Of a stretch of DNA of 36,532 bases, positions 6,247 through 26,368 are shown piece after piece. The stretch comes from Lysobacterales bacterium. Its GTDB lineage: Bacteria > Pseudomonadota > Gammaproteobacteria > Xanthomonadales > SZUA-36. A program made the position numbers and the translations under genes. Every line of letters begins with the position of its first letter. Within the stretch, counting starts at the first letter, position 1. Location: assembly GCA_021648125.1 (NCBI GenBank), contig JAKITK010000030.1, forward strand, positions 1 to 36,532, given 5' to 3'. The notes below the pieces were generated by a model that saw only the letters and a list, made by a program, of their open reading frames with translations, was not told where the DNA came from and made no database searches.

Positions 6247-6999
6247 ATGAAGAAAGTCAAAATATTATTACTGCTGGTTGGTGGTCTAATCATTACTACC
6301 ACTAACTGTCTGGCTAAAAGCAATCTGGAAAAGGATTATATTGGTGATATTTTATATCACCCGCAATCTGCAACAGTATCTAAAAGTACAGTCAGCACAC
6401 AAAACGGCATTCTCCTCTCAAGCGACCTTCAAATTGATCTTAATAGCGGTGTAATTGAAAGAACCTTTACATTGGATACAGGCCAAGGGGTCTATGATGG
6501 TTATACCAGATATATCATCAATGGAGATAGCTTAACTGTAGAAACAAAAACACCATTTAGGCAATCCACGGAAACATTGAATATTAGGAGTAGTCTTGAT
6601 TTAATCGAAAGTGATTCATTCTTGAGTGATCTACTGCAAGCAGGTGAAGTATTAAACACGCTGCGAAAGTCAAACAGCACACCTAATCAAGCCAATATCC
6701 GATTGATAAGCAAGCCAATAAAACAAGGCGCGATAATAACCTCTGATGGAGAATGCTTTGGTGCAAGTTGCCCTGGTGATGAGCCACCCCGACCAGACGA
6801 ACCACCACGTGACACTACAACAATTACCGCTGAATGTGAAGACGCCCTTTTTGCGCTAGTTGATGCACTAGACGCCTTCGCGAGCTGTCGCGGTTCATTA
6901 ATGTCAATGATTACTAACTGTGCACGCGAAGCGGGTAGCGTTGTCGGTACCACACTTATCGTAAAAAGAGAATGCCCTAGACCAAAGCCCAAGCCGTAG
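6247..6999 (+). CDS. Unknown secreted protein with Cys/Pro-rich C-terminus
   Basis: A 250-residue protein of no family I recognise. MKKVKILLLLVGG and the following hydrophobic run to about residue 23 form a signal peptide. The TTNC around residue 20 is not a good lipobox, so secretion is likelier than lipidation. The middle (about 30-170) is Ser/Thr/Asn-rich and probably beta-structured. It is followed by a proline-rich hinge (GDEPPRPDEPPRD) and a C-terminal helix-like segment with several cysteines (ECEDALFALVDALDAFASC, NC, EC) that could form disulfides. ATG 6247 is preceded by AAGGAAG about 10-12 bases upstream. The frame is open back to a TTG at 6160 through the G-tract, but that would bury the signal peptide. 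It is convergent with the sulfotransferases. Confidence 0.65.
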   Translation: MKKVKILLLLVGGLIITTTNCLAKSNLEKDYIGDILYHPQSATVSKSTVSTQNGILLSSDLQIDLNSGVIERTFTLDTGQGVYDGYTRYIINGDSLTVETKTPFRQSTETLNIRSSLDLIESDSFLSDLLQAGEVLNTLRKSNSTPNQANIRLISKPIKQGAIITSDGECFGASCPGDEPPRPDEPPRDTTTITAECEDALFALVDALDAFASCRGSLMSMITNCAREAGSVVGTTLIVKRECPRPKPKP

Positions 7000-7116: not shown

Positions 7117-8694
7117 TTAATTTATACCAATACCAGCTGCCCTGAGATATTCCTTCAAAGGCTGAAGCTCAGCAGCAAAATATTTCCATTTATTGACTGA
7201 CCGACTATGCATCTTTTCGCGCACCTGCAGAGTACTGGCAGAAGCACTGGCGGTTGGGTTTTTTTCAAAACTCAAACACGCTGGTTCAAATTCTAGCCCC
7301 AACTTATCCAACAGCAAGCGTGTTTGGTTTTCCTGATCGCTGACTAGGGATTCATACTCAACTTCAATTAGGCGATCGCCCAATACAGACTGCCAATGGC
7401 GCCGTAAGCGGTCCTGAGCTACAAAATACTGCCCAAGATTATCCAGTGAATAGGCGAACTTGAAAAATGACTGTTTATACATCGCAAAACAGGCATCCAT
7501 AGGGTTGCGCCGCAAATAAACAATACGCGCCTTAGGAAATGCTTTGGCGATAAAACCAAGGTATAGAAAGTTATATGGATACTTATCAATAAACAGCGGT
7601 CGGTCAGTTAGTCGATAAGTGACTTCTTGCATATATTTTTGGGCGATTTGGCGAATATTTTTCCTTGCTGCTTTCTCAATTATCAGCTCGTTCACATCGC
7701 CAATACCACCAACGCCTGCGGCATGACGAATGGCAAGTTGCATGAAAAATGTTTCATCGGCACTCTCAACTTGGGAATGACTGGAGATAATTCGTTCCGT
7801 CAAGGTAGTGCCAGTGCGCGGTAAACCGACAATGAAGATAGGTGTTTTAGTTGACTTATCGGAAGCTCGCAAACCCGCGTTATTGACCAGCCAGTCTGCG
7901 TTGCAAACTTTTATAATTTTTTCGATCACAGCGATATCATCAGCGACATCATAGTCTGCCACTTTCGCCACTGCATCACCTGCCAGTTTGTAATAGTGAA
8001 AAGACTCCTGCCAGCGTTCAAGGTCTTCCAACTCTTTGCCAATGGCGTAATACAAAAAAATATTTTTTTCAGCCGGTAATTGCGTTTGCTTTAGAACAGT
8101 TTGCATCTGCTCTAGGTGGGCTGAATCATTTGTAGTTTCAAGTTTGGATAATTCATAATGATTTTTTTGATGTTGCGGGTATTTTTCCAATAACTGCCGA
8201 TACAGCGCTTTGGCATCATTTACTTTGCCTAAAAGAACGCTACAGGCTGCCAGATTGGCGCGAAACATATCCACGCCCGGCTGTAATAGATTGGCTTGTT
8301 GAAATAATGGCCAGGCGCGGTTGTGCAAACCCAGCGCTGAGAAAACCCTAGCAGCCATATCAAGGTACAGAGGGCTATTGGTAAGTGACTGTTGATAACG
8401 TTCAAGTAAGCCAAAAGAATCACTATGGCGTTGTGATAGCAAATAGAGGTCAGCAAGCTCTATGGCTGCATCATAACGTTGCGAATTCAGGCTCAGGGTT
8501 TTAATAAAGGCCTGGATTGCGCGTTTGACTTGTCCCTTGCCCTTTTCTGCCAGACCGGCGAGAAAATATGCTTCTGGTTCTTTTTTATCCAATTTCTGAA
8601 TTTTATTCGCGAAAGCGGCAACACTCACCCAGTCGCGTCTTTGTGCCGCTACTCGCGCAGCCTGACTCAGTTGTCTCAGCTGATCATTCTGCAT
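7117..8694 (-). CDS. TPR-containing sulfotransferase (copy 1)
   Basis: A 525-residue cytoplasmic protein with no signal peptide. Residues about 1-250 are TPR repeats (EAYFLAGLAEKGKGQ, AIQAFIKTLSLN, AWPLFQQANLLQPG). Residues 285-520 are a PAPS-dependent sulfotransferase domain: the 5'-phosphosulfate loop FIVGLPRTGTTLTER (287-301), the 3'-phosphate region RIVYLRRNPMDACFAMY (390-406), and VEYESLVSD (445-453). The family transfers sulfate from PAPS to hydroxyl groups; TPR-bearing members are often compared with tyrosylprotein sulfotransferases because the TPRs could present a peptide substrate. It follows a paralogue on the same strand after 54 bases. No strong SD precedes ATG 8694. The substrate is unknown. 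Confidence 0.85.
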   Translation of the reverse strand: MQNDQLRQLSQAARVAAQRRDWVSVAAFANKIQKLDKKEPEAYFLAGLAEKGKGQVKRAIQAFIKTLSLNSQRYDAAIELADLYLLSQRHSDSFGLLERYQQSLTNSPLYLDMAARVFSALGLHNRAWPLFQQANLLQPGVDMFRANLAACSVLLGKVNDAKALYRQLLEKYPQHQKNHYELSKLETTNDSAHLEQMQTVLKQTQLPAEKNIFLYYAIGKELEDLERWQESFHYYKLAGDAVAKVADYDVADDIAVIEKIIKVCNADWLVNNAGLRASDKSTKTPIFIVGLPRTGTTLTERIISSHSQVESADETFFMQLAIRHAAGVGGIGDVNELIIEKAARKNIRQIAQKYMQEVTYRLTDRPLFIDKYPYNFLYLGFIAKAFPKARIVYLRRNPMDACFAMYKQSFFKFAYSLDNLGQYFVAQDRLRRHWQSVLGDRLIEVEYESLVSDQENQTRLLLDKLGLEFEPACLSFEKNPTASASASTLQVREKMHSRSVNKWKYFAAELQPLKEYLRAAGIGIN

Positions 8695-8748
8695 AGGCTT
8701 TATTTAACGCTGCTGAGTGCCGCTTTCATAATCATTAGGGTAAGTGAT

Positions 8749-10332
8749 TTATTCAACTTTTATACCGGCATTTTCGAGATGTGTCTTTAAGGGTTGTAAC
8801 TGGTCGCGGAATCGTTGCCAACGCTGGATAGAACGGCTGTGTGTTTTTTCTCTAACTTGGACTGAACTGGCCGTCGTGCTAGGTGCAGTATTTTTATCAA
8901 AATTCAGGCAATTTTGTTCAAATTCAAGACCCAATTTATCTAATAAAATACGCGTCTGGTTTTCAGTATCGCTAACCAGCGACTCATATTCCACTTCGAT
9001 CAGACGATCCTCTAGCACTTCACTCCAGTGTTGATGCAAGCGTTGATAAGCTACATAATACTTGCCTAGATCTTCCAGTGAATAGGAAAATTTATAGGCC
9101 CAAGTGAAAACTTGTTTAAACATGGAAAAACAGGTATCAAGCGGATTTCTATCCAGGCGAATAATGCGTGCATCAGGCCAAGCTTTGACGATAAAACCTA
9201 GGAACAGGAAGTTAAACGGTAGCTTGTCGATAAAAAAAGCTGATTCGCCGAGGCGGTAGTCTATTTGTTCAAGGTATCCCGTTGAAATGAGCCCCGGGTC
9301 AACCTGAGCCAATGATTCTATCATTTCTGGATTCATATTTTCGATGCCGTGAACGCCACTTTCACGACGCAAAACCATTTGCAGGAATAGTGTTTCACCA
9401 ACACTTTCCACTTGCGAATGGCTGGAAACAATGCGCTCGGTCAAAGTGGTGCCGGTACGCGGCAAACCGACGATAAATATAGGTGTTTTTTTAGAGTTTT
9501 TCGCGCCTGATTCTACAGTATTATCGCTGATCCAGTCGGCATTACAAACCTCAATCACTTTATCAATCAGCGCTATGTCGTTGGCAACATCATATTTGGC
9601 CACGCTACAAACAGCGTCACCCGCCTGTTTGTAATAACGGAATGACTCCTGCCATTGCTTAAGATCTTCCAGTTCCTTAGCCAGTGCATAGTACATAAAT
9701 ATATTTCTATCTGCCGTGGCATCTGATTGCTTCAAAATTTCCTGCATTTGATCAATATGTGCTCGGTCTTCAGCCGTAGCCGTACGCGCGAGCTGGTAAT
9801 GGTTTCGCTGATGATTCGGAAAGCGTTTTAGTAAGGCCCGGTAAATATCACGGGATTCTTCAACTTTTCCGAAATAAAGGCCACAGGCAGCAAGGTTTGC
9901 CTGAAACAAGTCCACCCCTGGTTGTAGTTGATTGGCTTTTACAAAAAGAGGCCAGGCTTTCTCTGGCAAGCCTATTTCGCTGTAAATGGTACCGGCAAAA
10001 TCCAAATATATAGGGCTGTTATTCAATTTTTCGGTATAACGCTCAAGTAGCTCAGCCACCTCTTTATTCCGCCTCGAAATGGAATACTGGCTAGCTAGCT
10101 CAACCGCAGCATCATAACGATTAGCATCTAAATCAAGTGTTTTTTCAAATGCTTGGATGGCGATGACGAGTCTCTTATTTACTTTTTCGACCAAACCAGT
10201 CAAAAAATAGCCCTCTGCACTGTTGGCATTATGCTGCAAAATCGAAGTTGCACAAGCCGCAACAGTTTCCCAGTCCTGGGAAGTCACAGCTTTACGCGCT
10301 ATAACGCTCATTTGTGAGATATTAATTGGCAT
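8749..10332 (-). CDS. TPR-containing sulfotransferase (copy 2)
   Basis: A 527-residue paralogue of the downstream gene with the same architecture: TPR repeats over about 1-250, then the PAPS-binding loop FIVGLPRTGTTLTER (286-300), the 3'-phosphate region RIIRLDRNPLDTCFSMF (389-405) and VEYESLVSD. Long blocks are the same in both copies (KTPIFIVGLPRTGTTLTER, SSHSQVES, YYK.AGDAV), while the middle of the sulfotransferase domain (about 315-365) and the region around 405-415 diverge. This indicates an old tandem duplication with altered acceptor specificity. It is divergent from the methyltransferase operon over a short gap (10333-10428), so the two sides may be co-regulated. Confidence 0.85.
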   Translation of the reverse strand: MPINISQMSVIARKAVTSQDWETVAACATSILQHNANSAEGYFLTGLVEKVNKRLVIAIQAFEKTLDLDANRYDAAVELASQYSISRRNKEVAELLERYTEKLNNSPIYLDFAGTIYSEIGLPEKAWPLFVKANQLQPGVDLFQANLAACGLYFGKVEESRDIYRALLKRFPNHQRNHYQLARTATAEDRAHIDQMQEILKQSDATADRNIFMYYALAKELEDLKQWQESFRYYKQAGDAVCSVAKYDVANDIALIDKVIEVCNADWISDNTVESGAKNSKKTPIFIVGLPRTGTTLTERIVSSHSQVESVGETLFLQMVLRRESGVHGIENMNPEMIESLAQVDPGLISTGYLEQIDYRLGESAFFIDKLPFNFLFLGFIVKAWPDARIIRLDRNPLDTCFSMFKQVFTWAYKFSYSLEDLGKYYVAYQRLHQHWSEVLEDRLIEVEYESLVSDTENQTRILLDKLGLEFEQNCLNFDKNTAPSTTASSVQVREKTHSRSIQRWQRFRDQLQPLKTHLENAGIKVE

Positions 10333-10428
10333 CGTATGTAGCTTTATTGCATATACTTAAAAAGTTGAGAGTATTATTATCGAATTGTGATTGTTATACT
10401 ACCTTTTTCACCAAGACTTCCCCTAAAA

Positions 10429-11400
10429 ATGAACAAACAGACTGAAATTCAAATAGAAGAAAGTAGCAGTTGGGATACCTATTGGGAAGGATCTGGTGAT
10501 GCCACAGCACTTACTGATGGCGGCGCCAACCACCCGGCAATCCTACATTTCTGGGATACAGTTTTTTTGGCATTGAAACAAGTTTATAAAGCGCCCAAAA
10601 TACTCGATATAGCCAGTGGAAATGGAGCAGTTCTGGAGCGCGCACTGGCAACATACGAAGATGTTATCGAACTGACTTCAATAGATATATCCCCAGCTGC
10701 AATAAGCAATATCAAGCGCCGCTTTCCCGCGGTTACTGGATTGGTTGCAGATGCAGCCAAAATCCCATTAGAAAGTGCCAGTTTTGATGCCGTTACCAGT
10801 CAGTTCGGACTCGAGTATGCCGGCAAAGAGGCTATCTATGAAGCTGCTAGACTTGTGAAGAAAGATGGCCAACTGGCACTTTTATTACACATTGAAAAAG
10901 GTAGCATTCACGAGGAGTGCCAGCAGAGTCTAGATGCCATCCAGCGGGTACAAGCGAGTAACTTTATTGCTGCAGCAAGTACTATGTTCGATGCAGGCTT
11001 TAAGGCAGTTCGCGGAGCAGACCGTAGCGCCTATGATAAAGCCGCTAAGGAACTGTCGCCTGCCCTAGCTGTACTTGAGGACATTATGCAAGAGCACGGT
11101 CAACATGTAGCCGCAGATACTATTTACCGCCTGTACAATGATGTAGCTAACATTCATCAGAGGATTCAACATTATGAGCCTGATGAAATCCTTAACTGGC
11201 TAAAGACATTGGACACAGAGTTGGAAGCCTATGCAGGACGCATGCAAAGCATGCTTAATTCTGGATTTGATGCAGACAGCTTCAAAGGGGCTTGTACCGG
11301 CTTAGCCGACATGGGGTTTACCATTGCTCAGGCTGAAGAACTTAAAATTCCCGGGCAAAATTCACCCATGGCCTGGCAACTGATTGCAACTAAGCAATAA
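10429..11400 (+). CDS. Class I SAM-dependent methyltransferase
   Basis: A 323-residue protein with a Rossmann-type methyltransferase core: motif I ILDIASGNGA (58-67), acidic residue Asp86 in LTSIDIS, and Asp108 in GLVADAAKIP, followed by FDAVTSQFGLEY (motif IV region, 119-130). The C-terminal half is helical and has no recognisable domain, so the acceptor is unknown. I chose ATG 10429. The frame extends to a GTG at 10387, but a -10-like TATACT at 10395-10400 would then lie inside the gene. It is first in an apparent plus-strand operon with the DUF4826-like and 2OG-oxygenase genes (gaps of 23 and 50 bases) and is divergent from the sulfotransferases. Confidence 0.8.
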   Translation: MNKQTEIQIEESSSWDTYWEGSGDATALTDGGANHPAILHFWDTVFLALKQVYKAPKILDIASGNGAVLERALATYEDVIELTSIDISPAAISNIKRRFPAVTGLVADAAKIPLESASFDAVTSQFGLEYAGKEAIYEAARLVKKDGQLALLLHIEKGSIHEECQQSLDAIQRVQASNFIAAASTMFDAGFKAVRGADRSAYDKAAKELSPALAVLEDIMQEHGQHVAADTIYRLYNDVANIHQRIQHYEPDEILNWLKTLDTELEAYAGRMQSMLNSGFDADSFKGACTGLADMGFTIAQAEELKIPGQNSPMAWQLIATKQ

Positions 11401-11423
11401 TTTTTTACTACTTAGGTTTGACT

Positions 11424-11873
11424 ATGAATGAGAAAACGAAACAAGCTGGCCGTGAAGAGCTGGATGCCTGGGTTAAAAAAAATCTCAATGCTGCTGTGCA
11501 TAAGCTTATGGCGCGCGGTAACATCGACAGTCTGGTGGTTGAAGGTAAAGCTGCTTGGGTGCTACCATTTCAAGTGCTCATAGGTAAGATTCGGGCTAAA
11601 GATCAATCCGGTGATTTTGAGTGGTTTATTTGTGGTGAAGTACCCACAGATTATCTTGAGTCTGCTGTGGCAGAAACACCGCGAGAAATCGCCCGCCATT
11701 TTGCCATGAAGTGGCAATTAAACGCTTCCCGTTTTTTAAGTGAAAGCCCTGAGCAGAACTCCAATCAAATAACCCAGGATACCGTAGCTAAAAACCTTAT
11801 ACGAAATGCTGAGGATTTGTATTCACTAGCTGAAGATGACCGCCTCTGGCTAGAGCAGAAAACAAAGCATTAA
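11424..11873 (+). CDS. DUF4826-like small protein
   Basis: A 149-residue soluble protein without signal peptide or membrane segment. The pattern VEGKAAWVLPFQVLIGKIRA (about 39-58), then FEWFICGEVPTDYLES and IARHFAMKWQLNASRF resembles DUF4826, a family without known function; this recollection could not be tested. ATG 11424 has AGG about 8 bases upstream, and an in-frame TTG two codons earlier is less likely. It lies between the methyltransferase and the 2OG oxygenase in the same orientation and may be an accessory subunit or an immunity-type protein, but nothing in its sequence shows which. Confidence 0.6.
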   Translation: MNEKTKQAGREELDAWVKKNLNAAVHKLMARGNIDSLVVEGKAAWVLPFQVLIGKIRAKDQSGDFEWFICGEVPTDYLESAVAETPREIARHFAMKWQLNASRFLSESPEQNSNQITQDTVAKNLIRNAEDLYSLAEDDRLWLEQKTKH

Positions 11874-11923
11874 TGCCGAGAGCATAGGCTAATTACAAAA
11901 TAATATCTCAACAGGGTATACAC

Positions 11924-12643
11924 ATGATCAATCCAGACTTAGACATCGACAGCCTTGCTAATGCATATAAGCTTGATAAACGCTTAGTCATAAAGAATTT
12001 TTTGAAACCCGAAGTTGCTGAACGCGTGCGTACTGCTTGCCAGAGTTCTGTTCCTTTCAGTGTCCATTATGTTATTGATGATAAATACCAGAGCAAGTCC
12101 CCGGTTGAAGTAAACAAAATGAGCGCGCGGGAAAAACAAACAATCTATGACAGAGTGAGTGCTTCGGCAAGTCAGGGGGTTGGCTTTTTATATGATGGTT
12201 ATCTTCGCAGTCGGGCTGAAAAGACCTCCGCTACTACGGATGTTAAAGAGCTGGATTTTTTACACAGTGTTTTTGACTATATCGATAGCGAAAATGTTAT
12301 TAATATCATAAAAAGCATTACTGGAAAACAGGATATTACCGCTGCCGATTCACAATTCACCCGCTTTACTTCGGGACACTTTCTTACCCGTCACCTTGAT
12401 GTAGTACCGGGCAAAGGTAGACGCATCGCTTTTGTTCTCGGACTCACTAAGAATTGGCATCCTGACTGGGGCGGCTTACTCCAATTTTACGAAAAGAACG
12501 GCACACCTAGAGATGCCTGGATGCCGCAATTTAATGTTTTGTCTATTTTTGAAGTTAGTCATATTCATGCTGTTACTTATATAGCACCTTATGCAACTGA
12601 ACCACGATTATCGCTTACCGGTTGGTTTGTAGCCAAAGCCTAA
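11924..12643 (+). CDS. 2OG-Fe(II) oxygenase, prolyl-hydroxylase-like
   Basis: A 239-residue non-haem iron dioxygenase. FTSGHFLTRHLD supplies His157 and Asp159, HIHAV gives the distal His215, and RLSLTGWF places Arg228 to bind 2-oxoglutarate. WHPDWGGLLQFY (178-189) matches the core strand of the Tpa1/proline 4-hydroxylase type (COG3751). Such enzymes hydroxylate prolyl or other side chains using O2 and 2-oxoglutarate. There is no signal peptide, so the substrate is cytoplasmic, for example a protein, peptide or small molecule. An AGGGT precedes ATG 11924. It is last in the short operon and converges on the TonB receptor gene across a tandem-repeat region. Confidence 0.8.
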   Translation: MINPDLDIDSLANAYKLDKRLVIKNFLKPEVAERVRTACQSSVPFSVHYVIDDKYQSKSPVEVNKMSAREKQTIYDRVSASASQGVGFLYDGYLRSRAEKTSATTDVKELDFLHSVFDYIDSENVINIIKSITGKQDITAADSQFTRFTSGHFLTRHLDVVPGKGRRIAFVLGLTKNWHPDWGGLLQFYEKNGTPRDAWMPQFNVLSIFEVSHIHAVTYIAPYATEPRLSLTGWFVAKA

Positions 12644-12668
12644 AGCGCCGTTAAATCTTTCCTAGAGG

Positions 12669-13037
12669 ATAGGCTTTGCCTCGCACATCCTTTGGAGCTA
12701 TTTGGAAATACCCGTTAGCCTGATAGGTTCGCATCGCACATCCCTGTGCTCTATCGCGAAATACCGTTCATCCTATGAGGCTTTGTTCTATCATCGTGTT
12801 TAGCTTGAAGTACCGTGCATTCTTATAGGCTTCGCGCCGCACATCCTTTGGCGTTATTTGGAAATACCCGTTAGCCTGATAGGTTCGCATCGCACATCCC
12901 TGTGCTCTATTGCGAAATACCGTTCATCTTATGGGGTTTTGTTCTACCTATGTGTTTACCTTATAACTCTGTGGTTTCTGATAGGCTTCGGATCGCACAT
13001 CCTTGTGCTCTATTCCGAAGTACCGTACTTCCTGTAC
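12669..13037. repeat. Seven ~52-bp units with 156-bp higher-order period, several hairpin-forming
   Basis: Units begin at 12669, 12723, 12775, 12825, 12879, 12931 and 12981, with lengths 54/52/50 repeated exactly, so the array is two copies of a 156-bp super-repeat plus part of a third. The first unit of each super-repeat differs at about 5 of 54 positions and the second at 2 of 52; the third has diverged more. The second-type units fold: TTCGC and GCACA pair with TGTGC and GCGAA around a TCCC loop, and the last unit pairs CTTCGG with CCGAAG. The array fills the gap between converging genes (12644-13096). I see no coding sense in it. Confidence 0.85.
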
Positions 13038-13039
13038 AT

Positions 13040-13067
13040 AAAAAAAGGGCCGCTATATTAGCGGCCC
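13040..13067 (-). terminator. Intrinsic terminator of the TonB receptor gene
   Basis: On the minus strand GGGCCGCT (13067-13060) pairs perfectly with AGCGGCCC (13054-13047) around a 5-base loop, followed by seven T (13046-13040). It lies 30 bases beyond the receptor stop codon. It may also stop plus-strand read-through, though less efficiently, since only TTCTTC follows on that side. Confidence 0.85.
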
Positions 13068-13096
13068 TTCTTCATACAATAGCGAAAACTAAACTA

Positions 13097-16096
13097 TTAG
13101 TAAGACCACTTAAGACGCGCATAGTAACCTATGCCAAATAAGCGGTATGTAGAAGGGTCAGTGTGAGCATTAAAGCCAGCATTGATATATGGAGGTGCTT
13201 CATCGGTGATATTTGTTACACCAGCTGAAATCATCATATTACTGTTCATAGCACTGAATGTGTAGCTACCTACAATATCATGATACAACGCAGCATCAAT
13301 TTTCTGGGTATATGCAGCAAAAGGTGCAGCAGCATCTATACCGCTGATAAATTCACCTAAATAGCCAAGTGAGAAATCACCCTTACTCCATTGGATAGAG
13401 ACATTTGCTTTGTCTGTAGCATAGGCAGCACCACGATCTCCATCATAAGTACCTTCTAGTTCTTCAATAGGGTTTCCATCAAACTGACGGATTTCACGAG
13501 AAAGCAAGTGAGTCCACAGTATAGATGTTCCAAATTGACCATAGTCAGTAGACCAATCCCAACCAAACTCGAAATCAATACCACTAGCTTCTTCAGTAGC
13601 AATATTCGACTGTGAATCACTGATATTATTGATGGAATAATCAGCATTACGCGTAATCAGTGCACAAGACTCCGGGTTCTGTTCGATATAACAGTCATCA
13701 AGAGTAAATTGAACACCCACTCTATCAATTCCATCTTCCAGATTGATTTGCCAGTAATCGGAAATGAAGGTAAAGCTATGGTCGCCAAGCACTGGTGTCC
13801 AAACTACACCAGCAGTGAAAGTATCACCTGTTTCTGGCACCAAGAACGGGTTACCACCAGCACGAGCCAATACCTGACTATCAGTCTGAACACCCAACCG
13901 ACCACAACCTGGTGGTAGTGGCTGTGGGTCGTCGTCATCAGGTACACAAGGATCGTTGTAAGTTGGGAAATCATCAACTACGCCACCGAAGAGATCGGTA
14001 ATGGTTGGAGCGCGGAATACTGTACCGTAAGTAGATCTTAACTTGAGGGTATCAGTCACGCCGGCTTCAATACCGATTTGATAGGTAGTATCACTACCGA
14101 ATGCATCCCAGTCATCGTAACGCACACCACCTTTGATAGCGACACTTTGTGAACCGTTATCGAATACAGGCGCATAGAATTCAGTGTAAAGCGCATTATT
14201 GGTCAGTGAACCTTCGGTGCTTGACCCAACACTACCGGTTACCGCACCAATGGTTTTGGCAGAGTCAAAAATTTCTGCGAAATCTCGCTTCCAGTAGCTC
14301 CAACCAACAGACCAGCCCAGCTCACCGCCTGGTAGTTCAAATGCAGAGCCTGTAAGGTTAGCACCAGCAGTACGCTGATTTTGAACGATGGAGTCAACAG
14401 TATCCAGAGAGACATAATCTAACATTTCCTGAGTTAATGTAGTGACTACTGGATTACCACTCGCATCAACTGAACCACCACCAAATAAATTTAATGGTAC
14501 ACAACCAACAATCAGTGTACCCGGGGTGTTAACATCAGCATAACATTCCGGTACACCATCTCCATCTAAATCGGCTGATGGGCCCAAAGCGTTAAATAAA
14601 CGGGATCCGGCAAATTGGCCAAAGTTACGAGTTGTAATACTACGATGTCCTTCGTTTATGAAGACATCCCAGCTTATATCATTGTCAAGATCGCCTTCAA
14701 GACCAGCTGTCCACTGATACTGAGTGACCTCTTGTTCAAAGCGACGATTGGTTTCAATCATACGCCGACGAGGGTTAACTACTGGCTCATATGCAAGAGA
14801 AGTACCATTTGCGGCATTGTAAGCATCAATCGCTTGGCGCAAATAGTAGTTGTCTTGCGAAATACCTGTAAAAGCAGTTGTTACTCCTGTTACCGGGTTC
14901 TCAAAGAAACCATTATACATCGGATCACCACCGGTAAATGGCAGCGGCGCTAGTTGCTGCGCTGATGTACGGTTGTTACCACGGAATTCTGCTTTGAAGC
15001 GTACATTATCGGTAAGATCAAACTTCGCTTCACCGAAGATATTGGTCCGCTCATAGGGGGTTTGAAGGTAGTTAACCGGCGCATAGTTATATGTGCGACC
15101 ATCATGCGGTACCATCAGACCAACTTCGTTTGGAGAAGTTGCCGGGTTGCCGATCAAAAACAGGCCTAGCCCAGGATAATCGTCGGGGGCAGGTATAAAG
15201 TTGCCATCTGCGTCTACTATAGGGGCGCCTTCTGCGTCAAGTAGAAAACTACGAGCTGAGAAGAAAGGCAAACGGCTTTCTGGGATTCGTGATGAACCAA
15301 TTGGAAAACAACCACCCTGAGGTGTTCCATCATATGGGGCTGTTATTTGGTTTTCACAACCACCGGCGTCACCTAAAATATAGAATGAATCTTGCATGAA
15401 GTCCCAAGGCACATCGCGCTGGAAAGCTTCTTCCTGAGTTACAAACTCAGCACCAAACACAAAGTTACCGCTGTCAAATTCACGACCGGCAATTAGAGAG
15501 TAAGATTCCTGACCACCTTTTGAGTCAAACCAGTCTGCCGTTTGCGCGGTAACTTCAATACCAGTGAAATCGGAACGGGTGATGATGTTTACAACACCAG
15601 CAACAGCATCGGCACCATAAATAGCTGATGCACCATCTTTCAGGATTTCAACTCGTTCGATCATGGTAGATGGAATTGCCTGATAGTCACCACCGTCAAC
15701 AACGCGTTTGCCGTTAACCAAGGTTAATGTACGGTCTGTGCCCATACCACGGAGGTCGATTAATACCGAACCGTCACCACCATTATTGGTAGTAGTACCG
15801 ATTGGAGAGCCGGACATTGAAGGGATGCTTTGCAGCAGGTCGCCAATATCTGTTAAACCGGTGATTTCCATATCAGCGCGATCGATGACTGTAACCGGGC
15901 TGGCGCTATCGATATTGGCACGCCTGATGCGCGAACCAGTAACAATTACTTCTTCAAGTGCATCTTCTGCATCTTCTGTAACTTCATTAGCTACATCTTC
16001 GGCATCTTGCGCAAAAACATTTGGAACCAACGCAAATGCGCTAATACCAAGTGCAAAGCGAATGGCCTTACTTAGTTTTGAATTATCAGTGGACAT
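13097..16096 (-). CDS. TonB-dependent outer-membrane receptor
   Basis: A 999-residue receptor. It has a signal peptide with cleavage after PNVFA (residue 29), an acidic linker rich in Asp/Glu (31-49), a TonB box LEEVIVTG (47-54), and then a plug domain (SASPVTVIDRADMEITG, LVNGKRVVDGGDY, VEILKDGASAIYGADAVAGVVNIIT). The C-terminal barrel ends in an aromatic residue (RLKWSY). Several loop cysteine pairs occur (GCENQI...GGCFP, CVPDDDD...PGCGR), and a loop contains a Ca-binding-like DLDGDG. The SRIRRANIDSASPVTVI signature is typical of a large gammaproteobacterial family whose ligands are mostly unknown. ATG 16096 follows GAGGAA by 8 bases. The energising ExbBD/TonB operon is encoded just upstream on the same strand. 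Confidence 0.92.
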   Translation of the reverse strand: MSTDNSKLSKAIRFALGISAFALVPNVFAQDAEDVANEVTEDAEDALEEVIVTGSRIRRANIDSASPVTVIDRADMEITGLTDIGDLLQSIPSMSGSPIGTTTNNGGDGSVLIDLRGMGTDRTLTLVNGKRVVDGGDYQAIPSTMIERVEILKDGASAIYGADAVAGVVNIITRSDFTGIEVTAQTADWFDSKGGQESYSLIAGREFDSGNFVFGAEFVTQEEAFQRDVPWDFMQDSFYILGDAGGCENQITAPYDGTPQGGCFPIGSSRIPESRLPFFSARSFLLDAEGAPIVDADGNFIPAPDDYPGLGLFLIGNPATSPNEVGLMVPHDGRTYNYAPVNYLQTPYERTNIFGEAKFDLTDNVRFKAEFRGNNRTSAQQLAPLPFTGGDPMYNGFFENPVTGVTTAFTGISQDNYYLRQAIDAYNAANGTSLAYEPVVNPRRRMIETNRRFEQEVTQYQWTAGLEGDLDNDISWDVFINEGHRSITTRNFGQFAGSRLFNALGPSADLDGDGVPECYADVNTPGTLIVGCVPLNLFGGGSVDASGNPVVTTLTQEMLDYVSLDTVDSIVQNQRTAGANLTGSAFELPGGELGWSVGWSYWKRDFAEIFDSAKTIGAVTGSVGSSTEGSLTNNALYTEFYAPVFDNGSQSVAIKGGVRYDDWDAFGSDTTYQIGIEAGVTDTLKLRSTYGTVFRAPTITDLFGGVVDDFPTYNDPCVPDDDDPQPLPPGCGRLGVQTDSQVLARAGGNPFLVPETGDTFTAGVVWTPVLGDHSFTFISDYWQINLEDGIDRVGVQFTLDDCYIEQNPESCALITRNADYSINNISDSQSNIATEEASGIDFEFGWDWSTDYGQFGTSILWTHLLSREIRQFDGNPIEELEGTYDGDRGAAYATDKANVSIQWSKGDFSLGYLGEFISGIDAAAPFAAYTQKIDAALYHDIVGSYTFSAMNSNMMISAGVTNITDEAPPYINAGFNAHTDPSTYRLFGIGYYARLKWSY

Positions 16097-16371: not shown

Positions 16372-16572
16372 CTATGCTGTAACATTTACTGCCTGTGGTC
16401 CTTTCGGGCCATCTTCTACATCGAAGTTTACCGTTTGGCCTTCAGCCAATGTACGGAAACCTTCGCTAGCGATAGCAGAGAAATGCACAAATACATCTTT
16501 GCTGCCATCTTCAGGGGTGATAAAGCCGAAGCCTTTAGATTCGTTAAACCATTTAACGGTTCCTGTTGCCAT
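16372..16572 (-). CDS. Cold-shock protein, CspA family
   Basis: A 66-residue single cold-shock domain, full length for the family. RNP1 is present as KGFGFI (13-18) and RNP2 as VFVHF (27-31), together with the N-terminal GTVKWFN and C-terminal GPQAVNV. These proteins bind single-stranded RNA/DNA and melt RNA structure; which paralogue this is, and whether it is cold-induced, cannot be told from the protein. A strong GAGGT lies 7 bases before ATG 16572. A -10-like TATACT on the minus strand (16689-16684) would give a leader of about 105 bases, consistent with the long leaders of cold-regulated csp genes. It has its own terminator and is monocistronic. Confidence 0.93.
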
Positions 16573-16891: not shown

Positions 16892-18268
16892 TTATTCTGA
16901 TGGAGCCTGATTGGCTTTCAGAATATCATCGATTTCACGGGCTTTCATTTCCGGTAGTTTTTGCTCAAGAGTATCACGCCGACGAATTTCACTATCAACA
17001 TACTTGATCCATTGACCCGCAGCACGCTTACTGCGTTTATCCTTACCAGCCGCCTGGAAGGCTCGCTTCGACTGCTCAAGTTTTTTCTGGTTAAACAAAG
17101 CCATACCATACATGATGTTTGCGGTATCTTTACGCTTCACACCACCAATTTCTAAACCTTTTTTAGCTGAATCAGCAGCATTGTTCCATTGCTCTAGGTT
17201 AATATATGATTGTGCTAGGCGAATATAGAGCTCGCCATCGTTACCTACTGCAGCGGCACGCTTTAATGGTGGGATGGCTTTTTTGTCTTCTCTAGCAGAA
17301 TACCAAGCTTGAGATAGTAGACGCAGGTTACGCACACTTTCATCTACATTATTGGCTTTCATTTCAGTTTCGAGTAACTGCGCGGCTTTTATCGGCAGCT
17401 CATGCATCAAGTACAAATTTGCCAGGTTGACCGCATGTTTTTTCTTTTCTATATAGCCTTTCTCAAAGAGCGACTCTGTTAATACCAACTGTTTTTTAGT
17501 ATCGCCCAACTCACTATATACACCCGCTAGGTTTAGCACATAAGTGTCTTTAGGGTAAGATTCAATTAACTGCTCGAGGGTTTTCAGCATATTGGGGTAG
17601 TCTTTCAGCTCATAGTAGCAAAATCGTAGCAGTAACAGCCAGCTTTCCTTAGGTGTTCTACCCTGATCCATATACATATCGATGGCTTTTTTCAGCGGTG
17701 GAATGGCTTTTTTGAAGTCCTCCATCTGGTAATAGGCAGAACCTTCCAAATTATAAACATCGGCGGCAGGTGAAGGCACCACAGCACGGAAGCGTTTTAT
17801 GGTTGCAAGGGTCTTGTTGTAATCTTCAGTGGTGAAATATAACTGAGCCATTGTTTTTAGTGCAGATTGCTGTAGCGCTTCAGGCAAATCAGCTAGCGCC
17901 AAGAGACTCTCATATGCAGAAATGGCTTGTTTATAGTTCTCCTGAACATAATAGGCATAGGCTGTTACATTCCAAATTTGTGCCTTTTCGTAGGGCGAAA
18001 GCTTTTTCTTTTCTTGCAAACTGCGTATTTTAGCTAAAGCCCCATTAATGTCTTCGGCTTCTACCAGCGCCTGAATTTCTTCAAGTCGATCATAAACCTC
18101 TTGACTCATGGCAACGGTAACTTTGGTTTTTTGCTCTTTTTTCGCGCTGGACTGGGCAACAGTTGTGGTGGTGATTAGCGCACACAGCAGTCCGATCAGT
18201 AGCGCAGATAAACTGCGTCTGACAAGAGTCCGGGTAAGTTTAACAAGCGTTAGTGGACTATTAATCAT
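16892..18268 (-). CDS. Periplasmic TPR protein of the TtpC-TonB operon
   Basis: A 458-residue protein with an N-terminal signal sequence or anchor (RRSLSALLIGLLCALITTTTVAQ, ends about residue 39), followed by TPR-type repeats through most of its length (for example IWNVTAYAYYVQENYKQAISAYESLL, VYNLEGSAYYQMEDFKKAIPPLKKAI, LYIRLAQSYINLEQW). TPR proteins at this position are known from TonB2-like clusters of Vibrio and Shewanella and are presumed to scaffold or regulate the energising complex in the periplasm. Its ATG overlaps the tonB stop by 8 bases, so translation is coupled. A strong hairpin closes the operon just downstream. Confidence 0.82.
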   Translation of the reverse strand: MINSPLTLVKLTRTLVRRSLSALLIGLLCALITTTTVAQSSAKKEQKTKVTVAMSQEVYDRLEEIQALVEAEDINGALAKIRSLQEKKKLSPYEKAQIWNVTAYAYYVQENYKQAISAYESLLALADLPEALQQSALKTMAQLYFTTEDYNKTLATIKRFRAVVPSPAADVYNLEGSAYYQMEDFKKAIPPLKKAIDMYMDQGRTPKESWLLLLRFCYYELKDYPNMLKTLEQLIESYPKDTYVLNLAGVYSELGDTKKQLVLTESLFEKGYIEKKKHAVNLANLYLMHELPIKAAQLLETEMKANNVDESVRNLRLLSQAWYSAREDKKAIPPLKRAAAVGNDGELYIRLAQSYINLEQWNNAADSAKKGLEIGGVKRKDTANIMYGMALFNQKKLEQSKRAFQAAGKDKRSKRAAGQWIKYVDSEIRRRDTLEQKLPEMKAREIDDILKANQAPSE

Positions 18269-18920
18269 CAGTCAACTCATAAGTAAATTTATTTTGGACA
18301 CCGGAAACTTCTACGGCCTGACCATCAAGAATCCGTGGCTTATATTTAAATTTCAGTGCGGCACTAACAGATGCACGATGGAAAACGCTGGAAGTACATT
18401 GCGATTCTACAACCACAGGATCTTTGGTTGTGCCCAACTTGGTTACCGTGTATTCAACCACACAGAAACCTTCCAGTCCCCTAGCCGATGCTCTGCTGGG
18501 GTATATGGGAGCAACTTTCACAATAGGCAGGTAATCACCCTCGCCTACTCCAAGACTAAAACCACCAGTCATATCAATTTCTGTTTCAACCGGTACAGCT
18601 GTAATAGCAATTTTATTGGCGCTTGGATTGAGATTGTCCAGCTGTGGGGTTGGAGGCTGTGGTGGCGGAGCTTCAGGTGGCGGTGGCTTCTTAGGCTTCA
18701 ATTGCCGCCGTTCGATAGCTTCATCGCGTTTAACCCTAACGAAATCCAGCACATTACCAGCCGTTTGTTCGTTAAGGGACCGGTCTGCAGTATCGATCAG
18801 GGATTGCATCAACCAGAATAGACTTAGGGTTACAAACGCAGCCAGTACTAAGCCAATGCCCACTCTGAACAAGCCACCTGACTGGTCTGAAGATAATTTT
18901 TGATTAATAGTTGCTGACAT
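18261..18920 (-). CDS. tonB: TonB energy transducer (TonB2 type)
   Basis: A 219-residue TonB. It has one N-terminal membrane segment (about 17-42), a proline-rich linker (KPKKPPPPEAPPPQPPTPQ, 75-93), and a C-terminal TonB domain with PIYPSRASARGLEGFCVVEYTV and FKYKPRILDGQAVEVSGV. It spans the periplasm and transmits the ExbBD proton-motive-force signal to the TonB boxes of receptors such as the one at 13097. Its start is 11 bases beyond the exbD stop, with a poor SD, which suggests reliance on coupling. It is followed by the TPR gene with an 8-base overlap. Confidence 0.92.
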   Translation of the reverse strand: MSATINQKLSSDQSGGLFRVGIGLVLAAFVTLSLFWLMQSLIDTADRSLNEQTAGNVLDFVRVKRDEAIERRQLKPKKPPPPEAPPPQPPTPQLDNLNPSANKIAITAVPVETEIDMTGGFSLGVGEGDYLPIVKVAPIYPSRASARGLEGFCVVEYTVTKLGTTKDPVVVESQCTSSVFHRASVSAALKFKYKPRILDGQAVEVSGVQNKFTYELTDD

Positions 18921-18931: not shown

Positions 18932-19336
18932 TTAATCTTGAGCGGCAATCGCAACATTATAAACACCGGCTTGTCTGGCCGCGTCCATAACTTGGATCAA
19001 AGTATCAGTTTTAGATTCTTTGTCAGCCTGGATAACAACCGAACCCTGGGGGTTTTCTGCATGTAGGCGCTCAATATTAGGACGCACAGAGCGAATATCA
19101 ATCATCCGCTTATCAATCCAGATATCATTATTAGCACCAATGGCTATCAGAATATTAGCTTTTTCCTTTTTCACTGCCGTGGCAGCATCAGGACGGTTAA
19201 CATCAATACCAGCTTCTTTGACAAAAGTCGCAGTTACAATAAAGAAGATCAACATGATAAATACCACATCCAGCATGGGGGTGATATCAATCTCCGCTTC
19301 TTCTTCGACTTCTGTCTGGTTAAAAAACTGTCTCAT
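18932..19336 (-). CDS. exbD: ExbD proton-channel subunit
   Basis: A 134-residue ExbD/TolR-family protein. It has a short cytoplasmic N-terminus, a single membrane helix MLDVVFIMLIFFIVTATF (21-38) containing the proton-carrying Asp23, and a periplasmic domain (VVIQADKESKTDTLIQVMDAAR). The sequence EAEIDITPMLDVVFIMLIFF is the family signature. Its ATG overlaps the exbB stop as ATGA. It works with ExbB to use proton motive force. Confidence 0.93.
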   Translation of the reverse strand: MRQFFNQTEVEEEAEIDITPMLDVVFIMLIFFIVTATFVKEAGIDVNRPDAATAVKKEKANILIAIGANNDIWIDKRMIDIRSVRPNIERLHAENPQGSVVIQADKESKTDTLIQVMDAARQAGVYNVAIAAQD

Positions 19337-19875
19337 TTAAATTCTCCGATAACCAGGTGATCCGCTAACAATGCGCGTTCCCGGCTAGCTTTGCGTTGTA
19401 AGTAAGTTGCCATAGCCACACCCGAAAGCGCTGCTACCATGCCAGCCATTGTAGGGATGGTCGCCTTTGACACGCCCGATGCCATAGACTGCGGACTACC
19501 GGAACCAGATATCGCCATGACTTCAAAAACTTCTACCATGCCGGTAACTGTGCCTAATAATCCTAAAAGCGGGCATAAAGCGACACAAGTTTTAATCAGT
19601 GGAATGTTTTTTTCCACCTGCGATGAAACCTGAGAAATAATTCGCGTTCTAATTTGGTGCGCACTCCAAGACTTTTGGTCGCCTCGAGAATCCCAAAGCT
19701 CCAGTGCGGTCTGCGCCATTTTTTTATGTGCGCCGCGCATATACACCATTCTTTCGATAATCAGCATCCACATAAACAGGGTGAGGAAGCCTATGATATA
19801 AAGCACATCCCCGCCGAGTTCCATGAAGTCTCGAATGGTTTCAAGAGCCGGCAGATAATAATAAATCTGATCCAT
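19333..19875 (-). CDS. exbB: ExbB/TolQ/MotA-family channel subunit
   Basis: A 180-residue ExbB of the short TonB2 type. The first membrane helix is near 21-43 (GDVLYIIGFLTLFMWMLIIERM). The paired helices with the family motif are LCPLLGLLGTVTGMVEVF and GVSKATIPTMAGMVAALSGVAMATYL. It forms the pentameric proton channel around ExbD. It starts 17 bases after ttpC, with an AGGGT-rich leader, and overlaps exbD by 4 bases. A second MotA/TolQ domain is present in the neighbouring TtpC. Confidence 0.92.
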   Translation of the reverse strand: MDQIYYYLPALETIRDFMELGGDVLYIIGFLTLFMWMLIIERMVYMRGAHKKMAQTALELWDSRGDQKSWSAHQIRTRIISQVSSQVEKNIPLIKTCVALCPLLGLLGTVTGMVEVFEVMAISGSGSPQSMASGVSKATIPTMAGMVAALSGVAMATYLQRKASRERALLADHLVIGEFK

Positions 19876-19892: not shown

Positions 19893-21269
19893 TTAGGCTG
19901 CTTTGTTGTCACTTTCAGCACGCTCTGCGAGCATGCCTGCTGCTTCTTCCTGCAGTATTTGGGTCAGCCTTCTGGCACGACCGGAAACAATTGTATGCAA
20001 GAATACCATTGGTATAGCAACTACCAGGCCCAGTACCGTAGTAACCAGAGCCGTCGAAATACCACCAGCCATCAGTTTCGGATCACCGGCACCATACAGG
20101 GTGATTGCCTGGAAGGTTACGATCATACCGGTAACAGTACCCAACAGACCTAACAACGGGGCTACCACTGAAATGATCTTCAATAATGGCAGCATAGAGT
20201 TAAACTTAGGTGTCTCTCTGAGAATAGACTCACCCAGTTTAAGCTCAACAGTTTCAATATCTATGCCGGCTGAATCATCAGCAGTTTTGAGTACACGCCC
20301 TAACGGATTGTTTACATTAGGCTCGCGGAGGTTCTTGATTTGACGGTTAACTTTAGTGCTCACCGCAGAGAGTACCAACAGACGCCAAATGGCAATTATT
20401 AGACCAATGATACCAAGAGTAATAATCACATAGCCTACTTCTTTACCCTGGTTTACTCGTTCCATCAGGCTGGGAGACTGCACCAGCAGGCTGAGTAATT
20501 GACCTCGGGTAGGATCCAAGCCGATGGCAAACTGACCATCAGTGCCGCTTTCTAAATCAGCAATACGACCTGTATAGCGGCTCGCAGGCTGACGTAGCAG
20601 CTCAACCAGACGACCGGTTTCAGGTATGAACTCCAAATATTTACCCTCAGATACTACATTGAAAGCACCAATACGAGTAACTTGCTGCTGATTTTCCTCA
20701 CCGGAAGCATTAACAACATTAGCAGTAAAGGTTGCAACTTTGCTGGTTTCAGTCATTTCCCGTTGTAATTCAAACCATAGGCGTTCAATTTCCGCAATTG
20801 ATGCGAGTTTGTTTGACTGCCCCATTTTCTTGGCAAAACTCAACAGGAAATCGGTACGGTCAGGAAACTGCGCCTGGGTCAGGGAAGACTCAAACTGACC
20901 ACGAGCGTCACCTGAGGCCTGTTGCAGCACACCAAACAACTCTTTAAGACCACCGAGGCGTTCCTGAAAAGCTCTTTCCAATTCGACAATACGGGCATCG
21001 TTAACTTCAAACTCGGCTTCCATACGGACGGAATTTGCTTCTTGACGCTTTTGCTCGGCTTTTTCGGCATTCAGTTTAGAGACCTGCTGTGAACGGTTAG
21101 AACGAAACTGTTTCAGTCTAGCTTCATTGGCACGGGCATCGGCAACCCGACCTGACTTGACCTGTTTCAACAACTCATCTAGTGAAATTGCTGTTGCAGC
21201 CTGTGCAGAAAAGGATACTGCCAAGACTAAACCGCCTGCTAAGCTAATTTTTTTAATCATGCTAATCAT
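19893..21269 (-). CDS. ttpC: TtpC-like MotA/TolQ/ExbB protein with periplasmic domain
   Basis: A 458-residue protein. It has a signal peptide (1-24, ending SAQA), a long charged coiled-coil (about 30-115), a periplasmic domain (about 120-270) and a membrane helix (279-300). An ExbB-like pair of helices follows (about 359-385 with VAPLLGLLGTVTGM, and 403-428 with GISTALVTTVLGLVVAIP). This architecture matches TtpC, the extra component that Vibrio TonB2 systems need for uptake. Its ATG overlaps the DUF3450 stop as ATGA. The symbol is assigned by architecture and operon position. Confidence 0.85.
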   Translation of the reverse strand: MISMIKKISLAGGLVLAVSFSAQAATAISLDELLKQVKSGRVADARANEARLKQFRSNRSQQVSKLNAEKAEQKRQEANSVRMEAEFEVNDARIVELERAFQERLGGLKELFGVLQQASGDARGQFESSLTQAQFPDRTDFLLSFAKKMGQSNKLASIAEIERLWFELQREMTETSKVATFTANVVNASGEENQQQVTRIGAFNVVSEGKYLEFIPETGRLVELLRQPASRYTGRIADLESGTDGQFAIGLDPTRGQLLSLLVQSPSLMERVNQGKEVGYVIITLGIIGLIIAIWRLLVLSAVSTKVNRQIKNLREPNVNNPLGRVLKTADDSAGIDIETVELKLGESILRETPKFNSMLPLLKIISVVAPLLGLLGTVTGMIVTFQAITLYGAGDPKLMAGGISTALVTTVLGLVVAIPMVFLHTIVSGRARRLTQILQEEAAGMLAERAESDNKAA

Positions 21270-22054
21270 TGCATTGCCCCTGTAGATGCGGCAACCGGGA
21301 CAATAAGCAAATCCGGTGCGATTTGTTTACGAGCGATCCTGATACCTGCAGCAATTTGCTTTTTATAGGTTGCAGGTGGTAGTTCCACAAAAGAACCGAC
21401 TTTAGCATCCCACGCGCCGGTGGTTCCACCGCCAACAGTCTGATACATCAGCGCTACGCGCCCTACACGCAAAAAGTCAACTTCCAGCTCGTTACCGCCT
21501 ACATCGGTTGAGCCTTTATAAGCTTCAATGGTGCGACCGTAATCATTTTCGATCTGGTAACCCTCGATCACACGACGGAATTTTTCTGCTGCTGTGACAT
21601 CAGAGCGCTCCATCATTTCACGCAGACGGGCAACCCGTTCGGTACGCTCTTTCATCAAAAACGGTGTGTCTAGCTTGATAAATTCTTCAAGCCCATCGAC
21701 CATCCGCACCATCAGTGGGACGATCTGGCGTTCAATCAATGCGACATTGCCAATAGATGTAGTTAATGACTGCATTTCTGCATTCTGGTTATTCAGCTGG
21801 GTCTGCAATAACGAGTTATAGATTTTCAAGCCATCTACAACCTTGGTCACAGACCTGTAGTCATTAACGATATTATCAGTCTGGTCGGCGACTGAATCAA
21901 CCTTTTTTTGTGCAGAAGCTCCAGCATCTGCGCGGCGTTCACCTTCTTTAATGACGCTATTAATACCCTGCGCAAATGCCTGTGTTGAAAGGCTGGCGAA
22001 AGTAACAATAACGACAGAAGACAGTAAGCAGGTAATCTTTCTATTATTTAGCAT
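21266..22054 (-). CDS. DUF3450 family periplasmic coiled-coil protein
   Basis: A 262-residue protein with a signal peptide (about 1-28, ending TQAFA) and a helical coiled-coil region (AGASAQKKVDSVADQTDNI, NSLLQTQLNNQNAEMQSL). The C-terminal part contains VDFLRVGRVALMYQT and TGAWDAKVGSFVEL, typical of DUF3450, a family found first in TtpC-TonB operons. Its role is not established; a periplasmic adaptor for TtpC is a reasonable guess. I chose ATG 22054 over a TTG four codons upstream. It is the first gene of the operon and overlaps ttpC by 4 bases. Confidence 0.85.
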   Translation of the reverse strand: MLNNRKITCLLSSVVIVTFASLSTQAFAQGINSVIKEGERRADAGASAQKKVDSVADQTDNIVNDYRSVTKVVDGLKIYNSLLQTQLNNQNAEMQSLTTSIGNVALIERQIVPLMVRMVDGLEEFIKLDTPFLMKERTERVARLREMMERSDVTAAEKFRRVIEGYQIENDYGRTIEAYKGSTDVGGNELEVDFLRVGRVALMYQTVGGGTTGAWDAKVGSFVELPPATYKKQIAAGIRIARKQIAPDLLIVPVAASTGAMQ

Positions 22055-22104
22055 GCGTAGTCTCAATGGATTGAAAAATATGTTGATAGTTTTATTAGAC
22101 GGAA

Positions 22105-22135
22105 CACTCTAATATACAGAGTGGCTTTTAGTCAA
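22105..22135 (-). promoter_or_regulatory. Putative promoter and operator of the TonB operon
   Basis: On the minus strand TTGACT (22135-22130, five of six to the -35 consensus) is followed by a dyad CACTCT-N7-AGAGTG (22123-22105). The dyad covers the expected -10 area (TATTAG at 15-bp spacing). A 19-bp dyad over a -10 element suggests a repressor site. It does not look like the Fur box consensus. The start codon is about 50 bases downstream. Confidence 0.35.
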
Positions 22136-22211
22136 CAGTTCTGAATCTATTCGTCTAAAATTTATTTCTTCAGATTAAAAATTATATGGTTAAAATTGCT
22201 CATTATCACGC

Positions 22212-26335: not shown

Positions 26336-26368
26336 AAAATAATTTAACTAAAAATAAAGACATAAGCA

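Follow-up and report, generated by a model that had tools for sequence, protein, structure and literature searches.

A conserved unit of sulfotransferase, methyltransferase, and oxygenase genes beside a TonB-dependent receptor in a Lysobacterales genome

What do enzymes for sulfation, methylation, and hydroxylation modify when their genes lie together beside that of an outer-membrane receptor? Such a block occupies positions 7117–16096 of contig JAKITK010000030.1 from a Lysobacterales bacterium (SZUA-36; genome label G000), described as a marine-type bacterium. Here, the window is the whole stretch of DNA that was analyzed, that is, positions 1–36,532 of this contig (36,532 nucleotides). The enzyme genes and the gene of one kind of TonB-dependent receptor make up a unit. 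By analogy with known systems, we propose, at a probability of roughly 0.43, that the cytosolic enzymes modify the neighboring receptor's own precursor with sulfate, hydroxyl, and methyl groups before it is exported.

The enzyme genes and their receptor

Two adjacent genes on the minus strand, STa (7117–8694, 525 aa) and STb (8749–10332, 527 aa), encode sulfotransferases with tetratricopeptide repeats (TPR-sulfotransferases) that are about 57% identical to each other; STa is among the 21 aligned sequences of what we call group I. They match the Pfam family Sulfotransfer_3 with E-values of 5.6e-44 and 6.9e-44, and the fusion of TPR to this domain is seen in both the Pfam matches and an AlphaFold2 (AF2) model. 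Diverging from them on the plus strand are genes for a class I S-adenosylmethionine methyltransferase (MT; 10429–11400, 323 aa; Methyltransf_11, 5.7e-14), a DUF4826 protein (11424–11873, 149 aa; PF16108, 7.5e-24), and a PHD/OGFOD1-like 2-oxoglutarate oxygenase (2OG; 11924–12643, 239 aa; PF13661 2OG-FeII_Oxy_4, 3.3e-23). These three converge on the minus-strand gene of a TonB-dependent receptor of 999 aa (13097–16096; plug and barrel by Pfam). The open reading frames (ORFs) of MT and DUF4826 open at GTG 10387 and at a TTG at 11418, respectively; ATG 10429 and ATG 11424 are probably the true starts. A hydrophobic N-terminus is present on the receptor and absent from all five enzyme-side proteins. 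The genes named in an earlier reading of the letters (hereafter, the sequence-only reading) are all in place, and all match the Pfam families named there.

The order ST-ST, MT, DUF4826, X357, 2OG, receptor, where X357 is an additional protein of about 357 aa that matches no Pfam family, is kept in four relatives from three genera with 55–91% identity per gene. Two of these (G034 and G033) belong to the genus of the window, and the other two (G012 and G027) represent two other genera, in which the flanks of the block are unlike those of the window; in G033, the contig stops before the receptor and the DUF4826 frame is short. Of the 299 genomes of the order, six (G000, G003, G012, G027, G033, and G034) are the only ones with a close receptor (identity of 56% or more) and also the only ones with a close STb (67% or more). 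Other members of genera g1, g7, and g12 in the sample, incomplete genomes included, possess neither. Several of these assemblies are incomplete, G033 being at about 60%. Receptor orthologues (69–76% identity) adjoin the cassette at loci L046, L048, and L049. Two TPR-sulfotransferases, MT, DUF4826, 2OG, and the receptor are thus a conserved unit; the sequence-only reading had proposed a check on co-occurrence beyond close relatives, and the enzyme set and receptor do co-occur across genera.

X357 lies inside the block in four of the five other genomes with a close receptor and STb, the rearranged G003 being without it; it is absent from the whole window assembly, and its relatives occur in 39 of the 299 genomes of the order. 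In G003 (L050, contig C108), a gene with vanadium-chloroperoxidase-like domains lies between one sulfotransferase and MT of the rearranged cassette.

A wider sample was obtained with the oxygenase, in one patterned search of species genomes with the 2OG alignment; of the 209 relatives that it yielded, the 80 best were kept. Neighborhoods were scored with profiles built in this analysis, counting enzymes within 6 kb and receptors within 9 kb; the 80 loci include close kin (e.g., L129–L131 and L133), counts are not fully independent, and a halogenase-bearing locus (L149) was counted as having no enzyme. At least one further modifying enzyme was present at 32 of the 80 loci, and a receptor was found at 27 of these 32 as against 5 of the 48 enzyme-free loci. 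At the five enzyme-bearing loci without a receptor (L097, L110, L114, L117, and L174), the contig runs on for less than 0.75 kb past the oxygenase. Where at least 4 kb was available on both sides, the receptor was present at 19/19 enzyme-bearing versus 2/24 enzyme-free loci (Fisher 2.6e-10, calculated on relatives that are not independent). The receptor profile is conservative, having missed two annotated plasmid receptors; a second detector built on the plug domain gave the same 19/19 versus 2/24 and still missed one of the plasmid receptors.

A TPR-sulfotransferase of the window type (>560 bits) occurs at 16 loci, all of which carry MT and 2OG. The receptor is seen at 12 of them, and the remaining four are truncated. 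DUF4826 is present at many group-I loci and absent from L101, L102, L103, and L143. The enzyme set itself varies. At L170, from Colwellia polaris, MT and a TPR-sulfotransferase are accompanied by a TPR-fused 2OG oxygenase (PF13759), an Asp/Asn hydroxylase (PF05118), and two 2OG genes; L175, from Alteromonas gracilis, combines MT with TPR-2OG and 2OG, and no TPR-sulfotransferase was seen there. At both loci, the receptor stands ahead of the enzyme set and a TonB operon directly after it. SapC (PF07277) is added to the set in HTCC2148 (L125) and a Halieaceae genome (L128). Genes of the tryptophan-halogenase type are found near receptors at L061, L062, and L149, the first two of which also have TPR-sulfotransferases and Asp/Asn-hydroxylase genes. 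Distant oxygenase homologues (28–36%) in the window's own family are mostly apart from receptors. Stretches anchored on X357 (17 of 20 fetched, with L186 and L187 chosen when a receptor match on the contig was already known) hold a receptor in 9/17 cases and a strong TPR-sulfotransferase in 6/17.

TPR-sulfotransferases are also found well away from this cassette, with matches in 37 of the 39 genomes of the window's family (E 1e-20). All three found in the window genome at this threshold are close to receptors, the third being about 60 bp from a different one. Beyond the family, we took 20 distant TPR-sulfotransferases from 20 genomes of the order (best matches, with G105 and G096 passed over), in stretches of about 20 kb except for one of 11.7 kb, and compared them with 20 control stretches from those contigs, placed at analyst-chosen offsets. 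A receptor was present in 16/20 versus 1/20 (Fisher p 2e-6; the plug profile agrees), and the sole receptor-positive control also holds a TPR-sulfotransferase.

Plasmids extend the range to the Alpha-, Beta-, and Gammaproteobacteria. From 47 matching records, 16 hand-picked regions were opened, 15 of them annotated; the numbers that follow are raw counts without a background, drawn from an incomplete gene table with near-duplicates (H21/H22 and H11/H12). The neighbor is a receptor in six annotated regions (Pseudoalteromonas twice, Novosphingobium twice, Asticcacaulis, and Komagataeibacter), an autotransporter in four (Enterobacter sp. 638, Lelliottia, Kluyvera, and Pacificitalea), a giant adhesin-like protein in one, and none of these in four. 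The Asticcacaulis region also encodes an Asp/Asn hydroxylase and further sulfotransferases. In the three enterobacterial plasmids (L273, L275, and L276), a family 8 glycosyltransferase stands beside the TPR-sulfotransferase and the autotransporter, which suggests surface-protein decoration there and in Pacificitalea (L279) too. The adhesin-like protein is that of a Comamonas endophytica plasmid (L277), where a giant cadherin-domain protein, a TPR-sulfotransferase, the type I secretion components TolC, ATP-binding cassette (ABC) exporter, and HlyD, and an adenylyl-sulfate kinase (cysC) are encoded in a row, an apparent operon for the secretion of a sulfated adhesin. The shared theme of the plasmid regions is an exported surface protein, and the looser pairing of TPR-sulfotransferase and receptor holds across the order and in Alphaproteobacteria.

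Relatives of the enzymes in sequence and fold

By sequence, the TPR part of STb is nearest to OGT and its catalytic part, which can be aligned to TPST2, is nearest to TPST2/TPST1. In the AF2 model of STb (pLDDT, the predicted local distance difference test, of 90), the top Foldseek rows are matches to the TPR part. In the fold comparison, the seven best rows are all protein-tyrosine sulfotransferases (TPSTs) from human or tick (Z 19.8–20.2, root-mean-square deviation [rmsd] 2.6–3.3, 235–246 residues), the top one reaching Z 20.2 with 235 residues superposed at rmsd 2.6; the sulfotransferases next in rank have Z 16.1. The loop GLPRTGTTL, which would bind the 5' side of the sulfate donor 3'-phosphoadenosine 5'-phosphosulfate (PAPS), aligns with GVPRSGTTL of TPST, and Glu313-Thr314, invariant in the 21 group-I sequences, aligns with the 'GEET' region of TPST2, whose glutamate we take to be the catalytic one. 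As modeled, the enzyme consists of a TPR superhelix like that of OGT, fused to a catalytic domain like that of the protein-tyrosine sulfotransferases. It shares with TPST1/TPST2 (3ap1 and 5wri) the catalytic fold, the PAPS-loop motif, and the catalytic-Glu region. TPSTs are Golgi membrane proteins; the cassette enzymes differ in being cytosolic and fused to TPR, and tyrosine is a putative acceptor in their case. An adenosine 5'-phosphosulfate (APS) kinase is present in the window genome, and PAPS can therefore be made.

In the oxygenase, H157, D159, H215, and R228, that is, the HxD...H triad and the 2OG-binding arginine, are invariant in five sequences. Its PDB profile matches are 4iw3 (the P. 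putida prolyl hydroxylase), 4nhx, OGFOD1, and TPA1, over the C-terminal half only and with modest scores; 4iw3, OGFOD1, and TPA1 share with it the iron triad, the C-terminal arginine, and an RLSLTGWF-like end. The oxygenase thus resembles protein hydroxylases in its sequence. The suggestion that TPR-sulfotransferases and prolyl-hydroxylase-like enzymes are types that act on proteins is borne out to the extent that the nearest kin of both are protein-modifying enzymes, by sequence and, for the sulfotransferase, also by fold.

PDB matches to MT are weak. The X357 model is poor (pLDDT 60), yet all 50 listed fold rows are sulfotransferases, with Z at most 7.1; the best Foldseek match (E 0.046) is not significant, a PDB sequence search gave one non-significant match, and comparison of X357 with the TPR-sulfotransferase profiles gave no significant match (hhalign probability 0.5%). 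X357 may have a further, divergent sulfotransferase fold if the model is a guide.

What the enzymes may act on

In the scheme that we infer, from its substrate and residue to the order of its steps and its benefit, the TPR superhelix of STa and STb would bind the unfolded receptor precursor in the cytosol, and the two enzymes would transfer sulfate to it from PAPS, at tyrosine or another hydroxyl. The oxygenase would hydroxylate a residue of the precursor, perhaps a proline, and MT would methylate the precursor, which would then be exported in its modified form by Sec/Bam and energized by a Ton complex. The likely gain would be an altered extracellular loop, leading to a change in ligand choice or to escape from phages or bacteriocins that use the receptor.

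We favor modification of the receptor before export, and rank it above ligand synthesis, processing of an imported compound, and modification of the Ton complex, because the receptor is the constant partner, because no clustered precursor or importer was found, and because of a likeness to HMW1C and FlmG. A comparison of the gaps at ten group-I loci showed no small ORF (18–110 aa) that is conserved beyond the pair formed by the window and L096, whose matches in or beside the block lie in genes at the flanks, in the space between 2OG and the receptor, or in a cold-shock gene, with other matches outside the block. A clustered peptide precursor is therefore unlikely at this cassette. At the ten listed loci, every gene that separates the sulfotransferases from the receptor encodes an enzyme, X357, or DUF4826, and, given both results, the receptor is the one recognized constant partner that is not an enzyme. 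No inner-membrane importer was recognized inside the block at the ten loci, and no exporter was recognized inside the block.

HMW1C and ApHMW1C are cytosolic glycosyltransferases, in one category encoded beside a surface protein that is modified before Sec export; the substrates preferred by ApHMW1C are autotransporters and further proteins of the outer membrane (PMC3983070). The cassette is alike in that the gene of a cytosolic modifying enzyme adjoins that of an exported partner, adjacency being what is observed here; HMW1C differs in that sugars are added, its N-terminal helical domain is not TPR-like, and its partner is an adhesin rather than a TonB-dependent receptor. In the case of FlmG from Caulobacter, an N-terminal TPR domain binds the cytosolic flagellin precursor and a C-terminal domain is catalytic (PMC7591256). 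The cassette sulfotransferase has the same arrangement of N-terminal TPR and C-terminal catalytic domain, with docking being putative; FlmG differs in being a glycosyltransferase with flagellin as its substrate. Like these enzymes, the sulfotransferase is cytosolic (no hydrophobic N-terminus) with a putative docking helical domain (OGT-like TPR), and by this analogy the cassette appears to be a variant of pre-export surface-protein modification. All of its parts belong to known families; what appears to be new is their association and their grouping into one cassette. Searches of the literature, largely non-subscription text, on sulfotransferases in connection with TonB receptors, TPR, tyrosine sulfation, tryptophan halogenases, SapC, or autotransporters turned up no description of the association and no paper in which TPR-sulfotransferases are given a substrate in an outer-membrane context.

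If TPR-sulfotransferases do modify neighboring receptors or adhesins, they would represent an overlooked layer of surface-protein modification, including protein sulfation of bacterial outer-membrane receptors that tunes ligand choice or hides the receptor from phages and bacteriocins. Sulfate is readily mistaken for phosphate in mass spectra. The neighborhoods name pairs of enzyme and putative substrate, so the question is testable in culturable relatives. A broader and more speculative view, which we put forward with less conviction, is that Gram-negative bacteria possess a modular system in which TPR-docked cytosolic enzymes of several chemistries (sulfation, hydroxylation, methylation, and elsewhere perhaps halogenation) modify TonB-dependent receptors, autotransporters, and type I-secreted adhesins at the precursor stage, ahead of their export.

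Several observations weigh against modification of the receptor. On linkage alone, receptor and ligand are indistinguishable as substrates. No receptor was detected near four of the 20 distant TPR-sulfotransferases (L218, L222, L224, and L225), and the annotation of four of the 15 plasmid regions lists no surface protein. On another contig of the window genome (C111, 15255–22198; L252), a receptor, a TPR-sulfotransferase, a weakly beta-lactamase-like protein, and a major facilitator superfamily (MFS) protein form a module that looks more like one for small-molecule uptake; counterparts of all four, 54, 44, 33, and 56% identical, are found side by side in a different genus (L065, G021). No modified residue or acceptor site was identified in the analysis. 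The cassette receptor has five tyrosines in an acidic context. Five further receptors encoded by this genome have three to seven each, and the counts in five linked autotransporter or adhesin sequences are 0, 0, 0, 10, and 2 (the 10 being in the Pacificitalea autotransporter), so that enrichment is not consistent. A signal-peptide motif occurs in 18/67 linked versus 3/18 unlinked receptors, and a looser pattern in 42/67 versus 6/18; the patterns were chosen post hoc, the groups are related, some of the 'unlinked' receptors lie near an oxygenase or X357, and without a clean split between the groups the motif was not used as evidence for a recognition signal. The nearest solved receptors match the cassette receptor in the plug region only.

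The alternative that survives best, although we consider it unlikely, is that the enzymes make or finish a peptide, a siderophore-like compound, or a signal that is secreted and then taken up again by the receptor. The receptor as constant partner suits this explanation, and sulfotransferases that act with secreted peptides have precedents in methanobactin and RaxX. The methanobactin operon encodes the receptor MbnT and the sulfotransferase MbnS, so that a receptor and a PAPS-dependent sulfotransferase are found together there as in the cassette, but the precursor peptide and the MbnB core are missing from the block. Two genes of the MbnB/TglH/ChrH family (PF05114) do occur elsewhere in the genome, both on other contigs (C11, 12984–13769, and C73, 7735–8520). 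The explanation is further strained by the gaps of the ten group-I loci, which hold no precursor ORF conserved beyond the window and L096, by the want of a recognized exporter in the block, and by the related TPR-sulfotransferases that adjoin autotransporters and an adhesin-like protein.

Next in order, and also improbable in our estimation, is that the enzymes detoxify or tag the cargo of the receptor, the block being an island for uptake and catabolism. The C111 module, with its 33–56% identical counterparts together in G021, speaks for such a function, and tryptophan-halogenase genes neighbor receptors elsewhere; against this, the block at the ten group-I loci has no recognized inner-membrane importer, and the nearest solved relatives of the enzymes modify proteins.

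The TonB operon and other neighbors

Beyond the receptor, the minus strand carries a complete gene set of the TonB2/Ttp type, encoding a TtpD-like TPR protein (16892–18268; TPR matches), TonB (18261–18920; TonB_C), ExbD (18932–19336; ExbD), ExbB (19333–19875; MotA_ExbB), a TtpC-like long MotA/ExbB protein (19893–21269; MotA_ExbB), and a TtpB-like DUF3450 protein (21266–22066; DUF3450, 4.3e-81), the last two named by their place in the operon. The TonB2 system of Vibrio vulnificus consists of TtpB2, TtpC2, ExbB, ExbD, TonB2, and TtpD2, with a TtpB of about 255 aa and a TtpD of 425 aa with TPRs (PMC6957404); the same kinds of genes are found here, and the difference is that modifying enzymes are not mentioned in the available text of that paper.

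This operon raises the possibility, a quite improbable one in our view, that the substrate is a protein of the Ton complex, such as TonB, which is proline-rich. The operon adjoins the cassette in the window and at eight other loci (L102, L103, L143, L158, L163, L167, L170, and L175; 8/32 of the enzyme-bearing loci), and among loci with full flanks it stands beside 6/19 with enzymes versus 0/24 without (p 0.0045), the adjacency being found in the window and in relatives among the Alteromonadales. In G012 and G027, however, the close TonB operon is on a different contig from the cassette, and no modifying enzymes were detected beside any of 20 close TonB operons in other genomes of the window's family (20/20; one, L286, has a receptor) in stretches of about 20 kb in 13 cases and shorter, owing to contig ends or the chosen range, in seven. 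The operon, which the sequence-only reading had noted after the receptor, is therefore ruled out as a constant member, and is an occasional, optional neighbor of the cassette. That all these genes share their location by chance or as house-keeping neighbors is very improbable: the relatives share descent and counts are not fully independent, but flanks differ, gene order varies, and the pairing recurs in other families at 16/20 versus 1/20.

Part of the TonB operon is included in a match to a second contig of the assembly, where window positions 19961–31917 are 87% identical over about 12 kb to positions 1–12000 of contig C107 (L301); this second contig likely reflects a strain mixture or contamination.

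On the other side of the block, a plus-strand gene for a secreted protein (6247–6999), which matches no Pfam or NCBIfam family, had been counted as the border of the island. It is missing at that spot in the close relative L046, where STa directly abuts a WS/DGAT gene, and is ruled out as a member of the unit. Of the idea as a whole, then, the link between enzymes and receptor and the kinship to protein modifiers stand, and the secreted-protein gene and the TonB operon as a fixed part fall away. A cold-shock protein gene between the receptor and the TonB operon (16372–16572, minus strand; CSD, 3.9e-33) had gone unmentioned and is 98% identical in L096.

The intergenic region between 2OG and the receptor (12644–13096) is shorter in the nine relatives with listed gaps. 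At 12669–13033, a 47-nt repeat is present in five copies, contained in two units of 156 nt and a part copy, and a pattern of the repeat has no occurrence elsewhere in the window. At L099, an extra sulfotransferase gene lies inside this gap.

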